From the NCBI RefSeq assembly GCF_002803515.1, contig NZ_PHQX01000001.1:3348001-3412000 (forward strand): DNA of 64,000 bases. The letters run 5' to 3'. This document shows, piece by piece, positions 41,626 through 47,578 of the stretch (position 1 is the first letter of the stretch; every line of letters begins with the position of its first letter). The stretch is from Stenotrophomonas lactitubi. Its GTDB lineage: Bacteria; Pseudomonadota; Gammaproteobacteria; Xanthomonadales; Xanthomonadaceae. The position numbers and the translations under genes are program-made. The notes beneath the pieces were generated by a model that worked only from the letters and a program-made list of their open reading frames with translations, searched no databases and was not told where the DNA came from.

Positions 41626-41725
41626 CGGGTAGGCAGGCCCATGCAGGACACGCCGTAAACCCATCCATGGGGGCTCGATGGCGCCATCCATGGCGCCAAC
41701 GGTCCTGCATGGGCCTGCCTACCCG
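41626..41725 (+). repeat. Long foldback element 1, sense to the TonB receptor gene
   Basis: Perfect 24-bp arms (41626-41649 and 41702-41725) enclose a 52-nt loop. The loop carries its own hairpin, TGGCGCCAT/ATGGCGCCA around CC. The element begins 44 nt after the TonB receptor stop codon. Its loop is homologous to those of the elements at 41873-41978 (opposite strand) and 47350-47453, while the arms are different. Confidence 0.9.
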
Positions 41726-41773
41726 CGCTGGACAGTTCCCCGCGCCGGCGCGGAGGCAATGGAAAGCAAGAGC

Positions 41774-41812
41774 AAAAGCAAAGAGCCGGGCAGTGCCCGG
41801 CTCTTTGCTTTT
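41774..41812. terminator. Strong bidirectional terminator
   Basis: Perfect 19-bp arms (41774-41792 and 41794-41812) built on GAGCCGGGCA, with A-rich left and T-rich right ends, so that it can stop transcription from both convergent sides. It lies midway between foldback elements 1 and 2. Confidence 0.92.
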
Positions 41813-41872
41813 CAAGCTTTTCTAACGCAATCCCTCTGGTGGACCTGCTACCGCGCCCGCAGGAACCTGTCT

Positions 41873-41978
41873 GGAGGAGGCGGGGCACCCTGGTCAGGAC
41901 CGTTGGCGCCATGGATGGCGCCATCGAGCACCATGGAGGGGCTTTTGCGTGTCCTGACCAGGGTGCCCCGCCTCCTCC
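41873..41978 (-). repeat. Long foldback element 2, sense to the DUF1704 gene
   Basis: Perfect 28-bp arms (41873-41900 and 41951-41978) around a 50-nt loop; short flanking segments (CCTGTCT and AGACAGG) could extend the stem. The first 29 nt of the loop are identical to the reverse complement of the loop of element 1, so it is the same element in the opposite orientation. It lies 42 nt past the stop of the DUF1704 gene. Confidence 0.9.
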
Positions 41979-42020
41979 CAGCCGATAGCAGACAGGCGCA
42001 GGAGGATCCGCCAACGCATT

Positions 42021-43274
42021 TCATTCCGGCGCCAGCTGGTCCATCCGGATGCGGTTGGCGAACAGCGAGAACGCCAGCATGCCGGCCAGGCCATTCGCCC
42101 GGCTCATCCAATGCGGCAGCCAACGCGGTGGCTTCAGCACGCCCGATTCGAACAGCGGCGCGAACGCGATCGCATCGGTCAGGCTCATCTTGCCGGCAAA
42201 CAACCAACGGCAGACCTGCAGGCGATCCTCGGCCAGCATGTGGCGGAAGAAGGTATGCACCGACACCAGCCCGCGCAGGTACACCGTGTCCTTGGTGAAG
42301 GCCAGGCCACCACTCGGCGGCACACCGCGGAATACCCGCTGCGCCGAGGCGAAGCTCTCTTCCGGGTTCTGTCCGGCATCGCAGAAGTAGCGGAATACCT
42401 CGATGAAGTCCGCACCCTCGCGCGCCATCGCAATCGCCTCGGTACGCAAGCTGATGCGCTTCAGTCGCTCGATGTCGATGCTGCCGGTGATCTGTTCGGC
42501 GAATGTCGCCAATCCTTCCTGGGTAGCCGTCACCCGTGGCGAGGACAGCGCCAAGCTTGGCAGCACCGGCTGCGCGCGACCGTTCAACGCTGTCAGCGAA
42601 TGTACCAGCGCTTCATGGTGGAACAACTGCGCGCGGTCGTAGGCGCTGAAACGCGCGCTGGTGCGCAGACGGATGCGGGTCGGTCCGGCCGCCGCCTTGG
42701 AGACCAGATCCGGATCCAGCTGCACCTGGATGATGCGTGATTCAAAGAACGCATCGAGGTCATTCTGCAGCTGCAGCTGCAACGCGATCGCCGAAACCGG
42801 CACCTGCTCTTCCGGCGCCAGCAGTTCGTGATCCAGTTCGGCAGCAATCTGGATGAAGTGGCGCGCTGCATCGCGCGTGCTCGGTCCGTTGCCGGGCAAC
42901 GGTTGCTCGGGTGACCCGAACAACTGCACCGAACAGGCATCCACGGCCGCGGTACCGAGGCCTTCCAGCAGCTGTGCAGCCAGATCCCAGCTCTGCGCGG
43001 ACTGCCGCACGTAATGGCCCAGCGGATGGCTTTCATCACACTCGGCAGCAAGCGCCGCCAGCGCGCGACGCTCGTCGCTGAAATCGAGCTTCGGGTAGTC
43101 GACCACCGGCAGCGTCGGCTGGCCGCGGGCCACGCTGTCCAGGAAGGGTGCCTGCAGGGTTGCCGGCCAGCTGGTCAGGCCCAGCAGGCGGATGCCTCCT
43201 ACGGCCTCGACCAGGCGCGCATCGAGCGCTGCATGGTGGGCCACGTCACGGTCAAGCGTCGCGGTCGGTTCCAT
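42021..43274 (-). CDS. DUF1704 family putative metallopeptidase (QEGLA motif)
   Basis: 417 residues. The motif HHEALVH contains HExxxH (His220, Glu221, His225), and QEGLA is at 252-256; together they define the family, often labelled 'flavohemoglobin expression-modulating QEGLA motif protein'. Eukaryotic relatives of the same family (MATCAP) are zinc carboxypeptidases that remove the C-terminal tyrosine of tubulin, so peptidase activity is a fair expectation, though the bacterial substrate is unknown. The start at 43274 is next to a TATAGT hexamer and gives the full family N-terminus; the open frame runs further upstream through a repeat. Confidence 0.85.
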   Translation of the reverse strand: MEPTATLDRDVAHHAALDARLVEAVGGIRLLGLTSWPATLQAPFLDSVARGQPTLPVVDYPKLDFSDERRALAALAAECDESHPLGHYVRQSAQSWDLAAQLLEGLGTAAVDACSVQLFGSPEQPLPGNGPSTRDAARHFIQIAAELDHELLAPEEQVPVSAIALQLQLQNDLDAFFESRIIQVQLDPDLVSKAAAGPTRIRLRTSARFSAYDRAQLFHHEALVHSLTALNGRAQPVLPSLALSSPRVTATQEGLATFAEQITGSIDIERLKRISLRTEAIAMAREGADFIEVFRYFCDAGQNPEESFASAQRVFRGVPPSGGLAFTKDTVYLRGLVSVHTFFRHMLAEDRLQVCRWLFAGKMSLTDAIAFAPLFESGVLKPPRWLPHWMSRANGLAGMLAFSLFANRIRMDQLAPE

Positions 43275-43280
43275 GGGCGG

Positions 43281-43286
43281 ACTATA
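43281..43286 (-). promoter_or_regulatory. -10-like hexamer 6 nt before the DUF1704 start
   Basis: On the minus strand TATAGT, then ccgccc, then ATG. No Shine-Dalgarno sequence. Candidate leaderless mRNA. Confidence 0.45.
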
Positions 43287-43305
43287 ACGCCCTGCCCTTG
43301 CTTTG

Positions 43306-43381
43306 GTAGGTGCCAACCTTGGTTGGCAGCCGCCGACGGCGGGCTTCGGACGCGTTCGTGCCAACCGAGGTTGGCACCTAC
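43306..43381. repeat. Inverted pair of GTAGGTGCCAACC-type palindromes
   Basis: A forward unit at 43306-43328 and a reverse unit at 43359-43381, between the DUF1704 start and the rsgA stop. Confidence 0.88.
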
Positions 43382-43459
43382 CAGAAGCAGGCAGCAGCGG
43401 GATCATTGCCGGGGGCAGAGCCCATTGCGGCGCAATGGGATCCGATCCCGCGATCCGGG

Positions 43460-44560
43460 TCAGCGCCTGCGCGGCTTGCCCGCGGGGCGGAACTGCTGGC
43501 CCTTGCCCTTCCTGCCGCCACGCTCCTGCGCGGTCTCAGCCTGGCGCACGGCCAGCTTTGCTGCAGCCGCTGCCACTTCTTCCTTCAACTTGAAGTAGTT
43601 CTGCAGCCGGCTCTCTTCAATCTCGCCAGCATCGATCGCCGCACGCACAGCACAGCCGGGTTCCTGCTGATGCATGCAGTCGTTGAAGCGGCACTGCGCG
43701 GCCAGCGCTTCGATATCGGCGAAACCACCTTCGGCCAGCGTTTCTTCGCCGGTCGGCTTCAGTTCGCGCATGCCGGGAGTGTCGATGAGGCACGCGCCCA
43801 TTGGCAGCGGCATCAGGGCGCGGTGGGTGGTGGTATGGCGGCCGCGCGAATCGTTGGCGCGCACCGTGTTGGTCTTCATCCGCTGCTCGCCCAGCAGCGT
43901 GTTGGTCAGCGTCGACTTGCCCGCACCGGAAGACCCCACCAGCACCACCGTGTGGCCGGGGCCCAGCCACGGCTCCAGCACTGCAACACTGTCCGCATCC
44001 AGGCCGTTGATCGCGTGCAGCGCAATGCCCTGCAGCTCCAGTTCTTCCAGCACCGCCAGCGCGTCATCGCTGTACTCGGTCTGGTCGGCCTTGGTCAGCA
44101 CCACCACCGGTTCGGCACCGCCACCGCCCACCAGCAGCAGGTAGCGTTCAATACGGCGCGGATTGAAGTCCGCATCCAGCCCACAGACGATGAAGACGGT
44201 ATCGATGTTGGCCGCGATCACCTGCTGGTGGTAATGCTCACCGGCGGCGCCTCGCTTGATCGCGGTACGTCGCGGCAACAGGGCGACGATGCGGATGCCG
44301 TCCAGCAGCACCCAGTCGCCAACCGCCGGCCGTTCGTGGCTGGGGAAGCGTGGGCGCTGCCACTCCGGCAAGGATTCGGCCTTGATCGACGCGTCCGGGC
44401 CATCGGCCACCACATAGTGGGTGCGGTGCTGTTCGATCACCCGCGCCGGTCGGGCCTGCGGGTGTGCGGCCATCGCGGCCTGCCAGTCGGCATGCTCCGG
44501 CGGGCCCGGCCAGGGCCAGCCAATGGTCTGCAGGGCGGTGAAATCGGGGGTCTGGGTCAT
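43460..44560 (-). CDS. rsgA: Ribosome small-subunit-dependent GTPase A
   Basis: 366 residues. A circularly permuted GTPase that helps the final maturation of the 30S subunit. An OB-fold N-terminal region is followed by the G4 motif TKAD (156-159), G1 GSSGAGKS (209-216) and G3 DTPG (260-263), the permuted order typical of RsgA. A C-terminal zinc region follows with CRFNDCMHQQEPGCAV. The tail is basic and glycine rich. The start at 44560 is preceded by TAGAAT 7 nt away, a possible leaderless start. Divergent from the aminotransferase gene. Confidence 0.93.
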   Translation of the reverse strand: MTQTPDFTALQTIGWPWPGPPEHADWQAAMAAHPQARPARVIEQHRTHYVVADGPDASIKAESLPEWQRPRFPSHERPAVGDWVLLDGIRIVALLPRRTAIKRGAAGEHYHQQVIAANIDTVFIVCGLDADFNPRRIERYLLLVGGGGAEPVVVLTKADQTEYSDDALAVLEELELQGIALHAINGLDADSVAVLEPWLGPGHTVVLVGSSGAGKSTLTNTLLGEQRMKTNTVRANDSRGRHTTTHRALMPLPMGACLIDTPGMRELKPTGEETLAEGGFADIEALAAQCRFNDCMHQQEPGCAVRAAIDAGEIEESRLQNYFKLKEEVAAAAAKLAVRQAETAQERGGRKGKGQQFRPAGKPRRR

Positions 44561-44567
44561 CGCCGCC

Positions 44568-44573
44568 ATTCTA
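44568..44573 (-). promoter_or_regulatory. -10-like hexamer 7 nt before the rsgA start
   Basis: On the minus strand the arrangement is ggTAGAATggcggcg then ATG, nearly identical to that in front of lpxL. No Shine-Dalgarno sequence is present. Confidence 0.45.
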
Positions 44574-44681
44574 CCTGTGCGATGCCGCCCAGCCCAATGT
44601 TGGCGGGCCCTGCAGCCCTTGCCATGCGCTGCAGCAATTCCGCTACCATGGAACCCCCATGCCTTCTGCGGCCCACCGCCC

Positions 44682-45956
44682 ATGTCCACTCCCTCGCCCA
44701 AACCCCTGGTCATCCGCGAGCGCCTTTCCGAAGTGCGCTACGAAATCCGCGGAGAACTGGCGCGGCGAGCCCGGGAGCTGGAGGCGCAGGGCCACAAGCT
44801 GATCAAGCTCAACATCGGCAATCCCGGCGCTTTCGGCTTCCGTGCACCGGAACACCTGCAGCGCGCGATCGCCGATGACATGGGCCGCACCGATCCCTAC
44901 ACCCATCAGCAGGGCCTGCCGGTCGCCCGCGAAGCCATCGCCGCCGCCTACGCCCGCCGTGGCGCACCGGATGCCCACCCGGACCGCGTGTTCGTCGGCA
45001 ACGGCGTCAGCGAGCTGATCGACCTGTCGCTGCGTGCGCTGCTCAACCCGGGCGACGAAGTGCTGGTGCCCTCGCCGGACTACCCGCTGTGGTCGGCCTC
45101 GACCATCCTCAATGATGGCCGCCCGGTGTACTACCGCTGCGCCGCCGAGAATGGCTTCCAGCCGGACCCGAGCGAGATCGAGACGCTGGTGTCCTCGCGC
45201 ACCCGCGCCATCGTGCTGATCAATCCGAACAACCCCAGCGGCGCCAGCTACCCGCGCGAGCTGCTGGAGCGCGTGGTCGAGATCGCGCGCCGGCACAACC
45301 TGCTGCTGCTGGTGGATGAGATCTACGACCAGATCCTGTACGACGACGCGGTGTTCCAGCCGGTCGCACCGCTGGCCGGTGACCATCCCTGCCTGACCTT
45401 CAGCGGCCTGAGCAAGGTGCACCGTGCCTGCGGCTGGCGCGTGGGCTGGGCCCACCTCAGCGGCGACGACGCGCGCCTGGGCGACTTCCGCGCCGCGCTG
45501 GACCTGCTGGGCGCACTGCGCCTGTGCGCCAACGTGCCGGGCCAGTACGCCATCGACGCGGCAGTGAATGGGCCGGACACCATTTCCGAGCTGTGCGCAC
45601 CGGGCGGCCGTCTGTATGAAACCCGGCGTGCAGTGATCGAAGCCTGCGAGGCCAGCGAGCATCTGTCGCTGGTCGCGCCCGCCGGAGCGCTGTACGCGTT
45701 CCCGGCCGTGGTCGGTGCCGCCGCCAAGGGCTTCGACGACCACAATTTCGCGCTGGACCTGATGAACAACGATGGCGTGCTGGTGGTGCCGGGCTCGAGC
45801 TTCAACGTGCCTTACCGCCACCACTTCCGCGTGACCCTGCTGCCGGAGGCGTCGGTGATGCGCGACGTGTTCGCCCGTATCGACCGCGCCCTCGCCCGCC
45901 GTGCCGAAGACGCCACCAAGGTGGTGCCGCTGAAGCCCCGCCGGTCGGTGGCTTGA
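44682..45956 (+). CDS. Class I/II pyridoxal-phosphate aminotransferase (AlaA-like)
   Basis: 424 residues. It resembles the alanine aminotransferases AlaA/YfbQ, which move an amino group between glutamate and pyruvate. Features are an N-terminal IRGELARRARELEAQGHKLIKLNIGNPG, the NPNNPSG motif, DEIYDQILYD, and the PLP lysine Lys245 in SGLSKVHRACGWRVGW. The start at 44682 gives the family N-terminus; no good Shine-Dalgarno sequence is seen. The GDSL hydrolase gene begins 3 nt after its stop, so they form an operon. Confidence 0.9.
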   Translation: MSTPSPKPLVIRERLSEVRYEIRGELARRARELEAQGHKLIKLNIGNPGAFGFRAPEHLQRAIADDMGRTDPYTHQQGLPVAREAIAAAYARRGAPDAHPDRVFVGNGVSELIDLSLRALLNPGDEVLVPSPDYPLWSASTILNDGRPVYYRCAAENGFQPDPSEIETLVSSRTRAIVLINPNNPSGASYPRELLERVVEIARRHNLLLLVDEIYDQILYDDAVFQPVAPLAGDHPCLTFSGLSKVHRACGWRVGWAHLSGDDARLGDFRAALDLLGALRLCANVPGQYAIDAAVNGPDTISELCAPGGRLYETRRAVIEACEASEHLSLVAPAGALYAFPAVVGAAAKGFDDHNFALDLMNNDGVLVVPGSSFNVPYRHHFRVTLLPEASVMRDVFARIDRALARRAEDATKVVPLKPRRSVA

Positions 45957-45959
45957 GCG

Positions 45960-46577
45960 ATGGGCTTGTCGTATCTGGCCCTGGGCGATTCCTACACCAT
46001 CGGTGAAGCGGTCGCGGTCGAAGGCCGCTGGCCGCATCAGCTCGCCGCCGCCCTGCGTGCGCAGGGCATTGATCTGACCGACCCGCAGACGATCGCCACC
46101 ACGGGTTGGACTACCGACGAGCTCGACGCCGGCATCGACGAAGTGGCGCCGCAAGGCCCGTTCGACTTCGTCAGCCTGTTGATCGGCGTCAACAACCAGT
46201 ACCGCGGGCGCCCGCTGGGCGAGTACCAGGTGCAGTTCCAAGCCCTGCTGCAACGCGCGATCGGCTTTGCCGGTGGCCGCGCGGACCACGTGCTGGTGCT
46301 GTCCTTCCCGGACTGGGGCACCACGCCGTACGGTGCAGGCAGCGGTCGCGACCTGGCCCGCGTCGAACTGGAGACCGACGAGTTCAATGCTGCCGCCGAG
46401 GTGATCAGCACCCAGCAGGGCGTTGCCTTCGTCGACATCACCGATATCAGCCGCGACAACGGCGCTGACCCGGCGATGATCGCCGAGGATGGCCTGCACC
46501 CGTCCGCACGGATGTATGCGCTGTGGAGCGCGCGTGCGCTGCCGGTGGCCACGCACCTGCTGGGCAGAACGGACTGA
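45960..46577 (+). CDS. SGNH/GDSL hydrolase
   Basis: 205 residues. Block I is LALGDSYTIG with the nucleophile Ser11, block III is LIGVNNQY and block V is DGLHPSARMY with the Asp/His pair. No signal peptide is evident, so it is probably cytoplasmic. An esterase or lipase-type activity is expected; the substrate is unknown. It is coupled with the aminotransferase upstream and the methyltransferase downstream. Confidence 0.88.
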   Translation: MGLSYLALGDSYTIGEAVAVEGRWPHQLAAALRAQGIDLTDPQTIATTGWTTDELDAGIDEVAPQGPFDFVSLLIGVNNQYRGRPLGEYQVQFQALLQRAIGFAGGRADHVLVLSFPDWGTTPYGAGSGRDLARVELETDEFNAAAEVISTQQGVAFVDITDISRDNGADPAMIAEDGLHPSARMYALWSARALPVATHLLGRTD

Positions 46578-46581
46578 CACG

Positions 46582-47313
46582 ATGGACGGCACGCCACGGA
46601 ACGGCACGCCCCTGCCCTGTTCGCCGCTTGATGCCGGGCAGGCGCGGCTGATCGCCGAGTCCTTCAGGCCGATGCAGGCCTGGGGCAGCCGCCGCGATTA
46701 CTACTACACCCGCGGCAAGCTGGGCAGCGACCCGCTGTATGACGGCGTACTGCAGCACCTGCCGGACGACGGCCAGCCGGTGCTCGACCTGGGCTGTGGG
46801 CTGGGCCTGTTCGCGCACGTACTGCGCCAGCGTGGCCGCCAGCAGGTCTACCTCGGGATTGACGTGGACAGCGACAAGATCGCGCGTGCGCAGCGCGCCG
46901 GCACCGGCCTGGCCGATGCACGTTTCGACTGCCTGGATGTGCAGGCACCCTTGCCGGCGCATGCAGGGCATGTGTTGCTGCTGGATGTGCTGCAGTACCT
47001 GGACGAAATGCCGCAACTGGAACTGCTGCGCGCGGTGAGCGCGCGGGTCGCGCCCGGTGGCCGCCTGCTGCTGCGTACGCCGCTGGCGACCGGCGACCGC
47101 CGCGACCGCACCACGCGGGTGGCTGATCGGCTGGCGTGGCTGGTCGGCTGGATGGGCACGCGACCGCGTCACTACCCGGATCCGCAGCGGCTGCAGGCCA
47201 CGCTGGCCGAGGCGGGGCTGCAGGTGGGCGAACTGCGGCCGTTGCACGGGCGAACGCCGTTCAACAGCTGGCTGTTGGTGGCTGAGCGCGCGGGAGCTGC
47301 GGCCAACGGCTGA
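46582..47313 (+). CDS. Class I SAM-dependent methyltransferase
   Basis: 243 residues. The SAM-binding motif VLDLGCGLGLFAH is at about 67-79, with the acidic post-I GIDVDSDKI, the motif FDCLDVQAPLP and a later LLLDVLQYLD. The N-terminus has YYYTRGKLGSDPLYDGV. Substrate unknown. It starts 4 nt after the GDSL hydrolase stop, so the three genes from the aminotransferase on form one unit. A foldback element lies 36 nt past the stop. Confidence 0.87.
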   Translation: MDGTPRNGTPLPCSPLDAGQARLIAESFRPMQAWGSRRDYYYTRGKLGSDPLYDGVLQHLPDDGQPVLDLGCGLGLFAHVLRQRGRQQVYLGIDVDSDKIARAQRAGTGLADARFDCLDVQAPLPAHAGHVLLLDVLQYLDEMPQLELLRAVSARVAPGGRLLLRTPLATGDRRDRTTRVADRLAWLVGWMGTRPRHYPDPQRLQATLAEAGLQVGELRPLHGRTPFNSWLLVAERAGAAANG

Positions 47314-47349
47314 GCCCCTCGTGGTGGGCGGCCAGAGTGATCGTGAGAT

Positions 47350-47453
47350 GGCCGGGTGGGTGGACTGCACAGGGGGCGCTGCAAGTACGTCCATGTAAGC
47401 TCGGTCGCCGCATCCATGCGGCTCACGCCCCTGTGCAGCCCACCCACCCGGCC
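47350..47453 (+). repeat. Long foldback element 3, sense to the methyltransferase gene
   Basis: Arms of 26 bp (47350-47375 and 47428-47453) pair with a single mismatch (A at 47364), which becomes a U-G wobble in the minus-strand RNA. The 52-nt loop aligns without gaps to the loop of element 1, sharing tccatg, gctcg, catccatg and the final acg. The arms are unrelated to those of elements 1 and 2 except for a short CAGG near the loop. Confidence 0.88.
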
Positions 47454-47545
47454 ACGGACGGTTTACGGGTGCGTCCACCACGGAAGACAAGGGAGAAAAG
47501 CGAAGAGCAAACGCGGGTCGCTTCGCTCTTGCCGCGCTGCGCGCT

Positions 47546-47568
47546 CGCCGGGCGTGGCCCGGCGCTAC
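47546..47568 (-). repeat. Single GTAGCGCCGGGCC-type palindrome
   Basis: A reverse unit next to the stop codon of the polysaccharide deacetylase gene, at the convergent end with the methyltransferase gene. Confidence 0.85.
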
Positions 47569-47578
47569 CGCAAACGTG

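Follow-up and report, generated by a model that had tools for sequence, protein, structure and literature searches.

Long foldback elements of Stenotrophomonas lactitubi form a high-copy repeat family with a candidate two-site CsrA/RsmA module at the tip

Introduction

Three long foldbacks in the genome of Stenotrophomonas lactitubi share a loop, while their arms pair almost perfectly and differ from one another almost completely. They were noticed in a 64,000 nt stretch of the chromosome (the window), behind the stop codons of a TonB receptor gene, a DUF1704 gene and a methyltransferase gene. A preliminary description made from the sequence proposed either an RNA element of mRNA 3' ends, such as a terminator, or a mobile hairpin. 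Which of these are they, on which strand do they act, and does the family stand alone?

Two lines of earlier work bear on the question. According to a passage in PMC4005645, the high-affinity Csr/Rsm site consists of a hexaloop, ANGGAX, that sits immediately on a stem with a closing C-G pair, the bases N and X being looped out. An entry in PMC2864571 lists the TwoAYGGAY motif for human gut, gamma-Proteobacteria and Clostridiales and marks it as probably RNA and not cis-regulatory, and a statement in PMC4333381 predicts that TwoAYGGAY binds CsrA, so that the CsrA-binding idea for this motif is already in print.

Results

Three foldbacks in convergent gaps

The three foldbacks lie where they had been placed in the window, with outer arms of 24, 28 and 27 bp. 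They start 44 nt behind the stop codon of the TonB receptor gene, 42 nt behind that of the DUF1704 gene (MATCAP, PF08014 in present Pfam) and 35 nt behind that of the methyltransferase gene; the preliminary values thus hold for the first two elements, and for the third, 26 bp and 36 nt had been given. The arm of element 3 contains a single A.C mismatch, which is a G.U pair on the minus strand. All three elements are situated in convergent gaps. Their parts are listed below with the strand that bears the ANGGAX loops and, in brackets, the basis of each assignment.

41626..41649, minus strand: element 1 outer arm, 24 bp, pairs with 41702-41725 (sequence)
41663..41668, minus strand: element 1 hairpin A hexaloop, ATGGAT on the minus strand, C-G closing (sequence and aligned copies)
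41686..41691, minus strand: element 1 hairpin B hexaloop, ATGGAT on the minus strand (aligned copies; the RF01731 alignment covers the element on the minus strand)
41702..41725, minus strand: element 1 second outer arm (sequence)
41730..41739, plus strand: tail GGACAGTTCC adjoining element 1, common to most copies in the genome (copy alignment)
41780..41812, no strand assigned: classical stem and T-run terminator between elements 1 and 2 (by eye; also in relatives' sequences)
41873..41900, plus strand: element 2 outer arm, 28 bp, perfect (sequence)
41911..41916, plus strand: element 2 hairpin B hexaloop, ATGGAT on the plus strand (sequence)
41933..41938, plus strand: element 2 hairpin A loop, ATGGAG on the plus strand (sequence)
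41951..41978, plus strand: element 2 second outer arm (sequence)
47349..47375, minus strand: element 3 outer arm, 27 bp, one A.C mismatch (sequence)
47389..47394, minus strand: element 3 hairpin A hexaloop, ATGGAC on the minus strand (sequence and aligned copies)
47412..47417, minus strand: element 3 hairpin B hexaloop, ATGGAT on the minus strand (sequence and aligned copies)
47428..47454, minus strand: element 3 second outer arm (sequence)

An intrinsic terminator combines a G+C-rich stem with a T run behind it. On inspection, none of the three stems in the window is directly followed by a T run, and a terminator of the classical kind lies apart from them at 41780-41812, which makes the proposed role as terminator unlikely.

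A repeat family with conserved pairing

Searching the genome with the pattern of the shared loop gave 51 matches versus 0 for a reversed control, and a wider loop pattern gave 152 versus 0; among the 100 matches listed for the wider pattern, at least one (C1:1908583) is probably fortuitous. From 46 of the 51 first-pattern matches a covariance model (R1) was derived, on the strand read in the preliminary description, and it yielded at least 150 matches in the same genome, each with an E-value of at most 1.6e-15. The copy number is about 150 or more, and the three foldbacks belong to a real repeat family whose loop occurs far beyond the three sites first seen. A strict loop pattern had no exact match in viral contigs. 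Since the first pattern contains TCCATG, the searches lean to that loop type, while for partner copies and class matches no pattern match was demanded.

As modelled from 46 gap-free copies, an element consists of a 25-bp outer arm, a bulged A, two C-G pairs, hairpin A (3 bp), a linker and hairpin B (5 bp as modelled), the tip of the long near-perfect stem being a three-way junction with two hexaloops. In these aligned copies pairing was kept in 97.1% of the cells. Changes on both sides of a pair were found in 400 pair cells, compared to a mean of 134 in shuffles, and one-sided changes in 0 cells across all 35 pairs. Pairing is therefore conserved while the arms diverge, as the preliminary description had anticipated, and arm sequence varies between subfamilies as well as at orthologous sites.

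An origin of the arms by copying from elsewhere was considered for an element with 49-bp perfect arms (L215, 5085-5230) and rejected, as a 30-nt piece of this arm, with up to 3 mismatches allowed, was found genome-wide only in its own two arms. At the same locus a 38-nt overlap between another element and the called 3' end of a gene may be a clue to the source of arms.

The hexaloops match the Csr/Rsm site

The loops were tallied at fixed positions in 195 distinct elements with a 52-nt loop, other loop lengths being left out (11 of the 47 distinct elements of the class set). Both hairpins together fit C-A-N-G-G-A-X-G in 387 of 390 cases, which is the Csr/Rsm site as far as the sequence goes. 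Hairpin A agreed in 193 of 195 elements (79/79 in the own genome, 21/21 in the genus, 58/59 in other genera of the bacterial family, 35/36 in the class) and hairpin B in 194 (79/79, 21/21, 59/59 and 35/36, respectively). Taken over the sets together, each of the four bases occurs at N and at X, whereas the A, the GGA and the closing C-G are nearly invariant. Although the seeds favour one loop type, this variation is seen in copies that were free of the seed requirement.

Predicted folds agree only in part. Of 80 elements folded with RNAfold, 1 showed both hexaloops exactly in the proposed form, 2 showed B alone, 10 showed A alone and 67 showed neither, partly because the A and U across the loop are drawn as paired; the mean probability of the GGA being unpaired was 0.91 in hairpin B and 0.74 in hairpin A. 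By comparative evidence, the tip is a candidate two-site CsrA/RsmA module.

Within the bacterial family, wobble pairs favour the opposite strand

Among the 45 mismatched cells of the 46-copy alignment, 34 were A.C on the strand read in the preliminary description, which corresponds to G.U on the opposite strand, and none was G.T. A wider scan admitted only long inverted repeats with a 44-60 nt loop; for the bacterial family, 45 of the 250 inverted repeats in the wobble and loop tallies were not classed as elements. On the ANGGAX strand G.U outnumbered A.C by 42:1 in the own genome, 12:3 in the genus and 64:1 in other genera of the bacterial family, or by 35:1, 10:3 and 50:1 when distinct events were counted. 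The class-wide set gave 15:12, where the construction of R1 on the other strand may favour pairs that are good there and so weaken the G.U excess. The wobble asymmetry is a property of the copies of this bacterial family only. The loop consensus and, within the bacterial family, the wobbles thus point away from the strand initially taken as the functional one.

In tandem gaps the G.U excess was alike whether the ANGGAX strand was sense (29:0) or antisense (25:1) to both neighbours. As the excess is the same for either gene direction, selection on ordinary mRNAs does not explain it.

Gene context and close pairs

Contexts were assigned for 177 elements with a gene model that was seeded with Pfam-supported genes and re-trained per G+C bin for the class set. 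When pair members were counted singly, and with gene calls that are rough for the class set, 74 elements were found in convergent and 15 in divergent gaps, 41 in tandem gaps with the ANGGAX strand sense and 45 with it antisense; 2 contexts were incomplete. This is in line with the proposed location at the 3' ends of genes. The sense orientation described for the three window elements is correct but trivial, because in a convergent gap either orientation is sense to one gene, and it does not hold as a rule: in addition to the 41 versus 45, the 51 copies of the own genome divide 9 versus 12 in tandem gaps. Neither could a fixed distance from the stop codon be upheld, as in the 35 of 51 copies with an upstream gene facing them the distance to the fixed arm start ranged from 41 to 147 nt.

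In the own genome, 64 of 91 scanned elements formed 32 close pairs, all 32 tail to tail and 147-269 nt apart. Two overlapping pairs of loci cause a few elements to be counted twice in the own-genome context and pair counts (91 elements, 87 distinct), and about 30 close pairs are left once the overlapping loci are removed. At the bacterial-family loci L108-L187 pair geometry was mixed, with 8 of 14 pairs tail to tail. In own-genome flanks (e.g. L002, L012, L024 and L031), runs of AGCAAC/AGCAAA were seen between stop codon and element, often together with a GCCGGGCTGCGCCCGGC-like palindrome.

Distribution among relatives

R1 matches were detected in 45 of 149 genomes of the bacterial family (16 of 46 genera) and in 49 of 281 genomes of the class (43 of 217 genera), the own genome included in both; owing to strict filters, these counts are lower bounds. 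The spread is patchy, as illustrated by G029, a genome of the same genus without an R1 match. The gap around elements 1 and 2 was inspected at 10 of the 30 genus loci (own included), where element 1 occurs with three arm types; L091 lacks element 1 and L092 part of element 2. Element 3 is present only in the own genome and L095, and absent from the other 28 of the 30 genus loci.

Several neighbouring features were observed at these loci. In L095, the ortholog of window positions 47314-47578, a REP-like insert of about 90 nt lies in the hairpin-B loop of the element 3 ortholog. In most relatives without element 3 (L079-L107), the methyltransferase gene ends in a TAG with which a REP-like palindrome (TAGCGCCGGGCCATGCCCGGCG or a variant of it) begins, and the stop looks as though it had come from a repeat with a GTAG tag. 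Loci of related genera (L166-L168, L173, L119, L127, L177, L185-L187 and L252-L259) carry other hairpins with CATGGATG or further GGA motifs, some of them without long arms. Close to an element in L178, a glycine riboswitch was recognised at 1589-1687 (RF00504, 62.6 bits).

CsrA is encoded in 149 of 149 genomes of the bacterial family and in 249 of 281 of the class. Among class genomes with elements it is present in 48 of 49, versus the 249 of 281 overall (P=0.013, kinship ignored), and the remaining one, G425, is a 270-contig draft. This co-occurrence lends weak support to a CsrA reading.

Relation to known elements

According to the preliminary description, no family of this form had been described. 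This has to be qualified, since Rfam TwoAYGGAY (RF01731) is a clear relative. On its minus strand element 1 has the architecture of this motif, two AYGGAY-loop hairpins inside an outer stem, with CAUGGAUG-type loops on the same strand, and it aligns with RF01731 over the full length (36.7 bits, E 2.9e-4 in a 501-base search). The gathering score is 43 bits, and scanning the window at this level gave no match. L155 passes the threshold with 46.0 bits, the only one among 40 other loci scanned; it is the same place as an over-threshold RF01731 match in G065, and R1 matches the opposite strand there. RF01731 exceeds the cut-off in 4 of 99 genomes of the bacterial family and not in the own genome. 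Three of these four (G090, G102 and G105) are not R1-positive, and the loci inspected carry other dual-hairpin forms. The elements differ from TwoAYGGAY in that their loops are ANGGAX and not only AYGGAY, the second loop base not being limited to Y across copies, and further in very high copy number, tail-to-tail pairs and arm turnover. The available passages of the TwoAYGGAY literature do not mention high copy number, pairing, arm turnover or class-wide spread. A literature search for gccatccatggc gave no match, and loop fragments matched only unrelated subjects.

With REP/BIME/REPIN elements and the SMAG repeats of Stenotrophomonas, as far as their accessible descriptions go, the elements share high copy number, intergenic location, a palindromic form and inverted doublets. 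The elements differ from them in having a constant tip and variable arms. No GTAG or CGTC tag was found at the ends of 51 aligned copies, and the earlier statement that they are not GTAG/SMAG palindromes is borne out.

The sponge RNAs CsrB and RsmZ likewise have GGA hairpins that present the Csr/Rsm site, although there many sites are joined in one RNA gene, whereas the elements have two sites per unit over about 150 places, and sponge action by them is a proposal. A passage of PMC7694677 introduces RsmU of Xanthomonas as an RsmA-binding 3'-UTR RNA. Rfam matches to Ysr224, C4, naRNA4 and microRNAs were below their gathering scores, several of them on either strand, and were taken as chance matches of long hairpins.

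Discussion

The structure and its covariation, the loop consensus, the copy number, the pairing and the distribution of the elements emerge from sequence comparison. They suggest, with a probability that we put at roughly 0.55, that the elements are a high-copy, TwoAYGGAY-like CsrA-binding RNA. The transcript of the strand opposite to that of the preliminary description would fold into a long rod with a three-way junction at its tip, which would carry two C-ANGGAX-G hexaloops, separated by 23 nt in the usual arrangement. A single CsrA/RsmA dimer could hold both. Many such modules, if transcribed and bound, might together titrate RsmA as a distributed sponge, or tie particular transcripts to RsmA. 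With a tail-to-tail pair, whichever way the gap is transcribed, the RNA would include one module in binding orientation.

The missing orientation bias relative to genes (41 versus 45) speaks against an RNA reading. In addition, the terminator between elements 1 and 2 implies that normally ended mRNAs of both genes would carry the other strand. Together with a wobble excess that is blind to gene direction, these points are counter to a simple mRNA-borne site; they would suit an element with a transcript of its own as well as one that moves as single-stranded DNA, two possibilities that are compatible. The nearly even wobble ratio of the class-wide set, the few RNAfold structures with both hexaloops open, the patchy spread and the lean of the searches to one loop type also weigh against the RNA reading.

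Less probable to us, yet a serious rival, is a REP-like hairpin mobilised by a host or trans-acting enzyme as single-stranded DNA of the ANGGAX strand, with the loops as recognition signal and CsrA uninvolved. High copy number, patchy spread, an element 3 confined to 2 of 30 genus loci (own included), the consistently tail-to-tail close pairs of the own genome and the absence of orientation bias all speak for it. In DNA hairpins, too, G.T is tolerated better than any other mismatch, so under mobility the wobble bias, blind to gene direction as it is, would reflect movement. Against it stands the agreement of the loops with an established RNA-binding consensus, which extends even to the two free positions, and neither a target duplication nor a boundary of insertion was found. 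Transposases of the RAYT type (PF01797) were considered as the mover and discarded, as they do not track the elements: PF01797 had 5 matches in the own genome, one weak match in the element-rich G046 and none among the matches listed for the likewise element-rich G106, and it also matched element-free genomes such as G006.

An orientation-independent hairpin that protects or ends mRNAs, with a tip that has no protein partner, would suit the excess of convergent gaps, the frequent vicinity of stop codons and a stem that can form on both strands, yet it leaves the strict loop consensus and the wobble bias within the bacterial family unexplained. The stems also lack a T tract, a separate terminator stands at 41780-41812, and we regard this reading as quite unlikely.

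A bolder version of the CsrA-binding reading, which we regard as speculative and even somewhat less probable than the mobile hairpin, is that of a distributed and mobile CsrA/RsmA sponge: about 150 two-site modules would have spread as tail-to-tail dimers and would jointly do the work of CsrB/RsmZ, their arms being continually re-made as near-perfect palindromes and only the protein-binding tip being conserved.

So far, TwoAYGGAY has been linked to CsrA by prediction, on the strength of motif matches. In the present elements, exactly those loop positions that the protein requires are retained across many gamma-proteobacterial families, and the two free ones are left to vary. Near-perfect and yet unrelated arms also provide a natural system for how long palindromes stay perfect. 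Should RsmA bind to these tips, the free pool of this global regulator would depend on how many copies of a repeat are present, a number that differs widely between close relatives.
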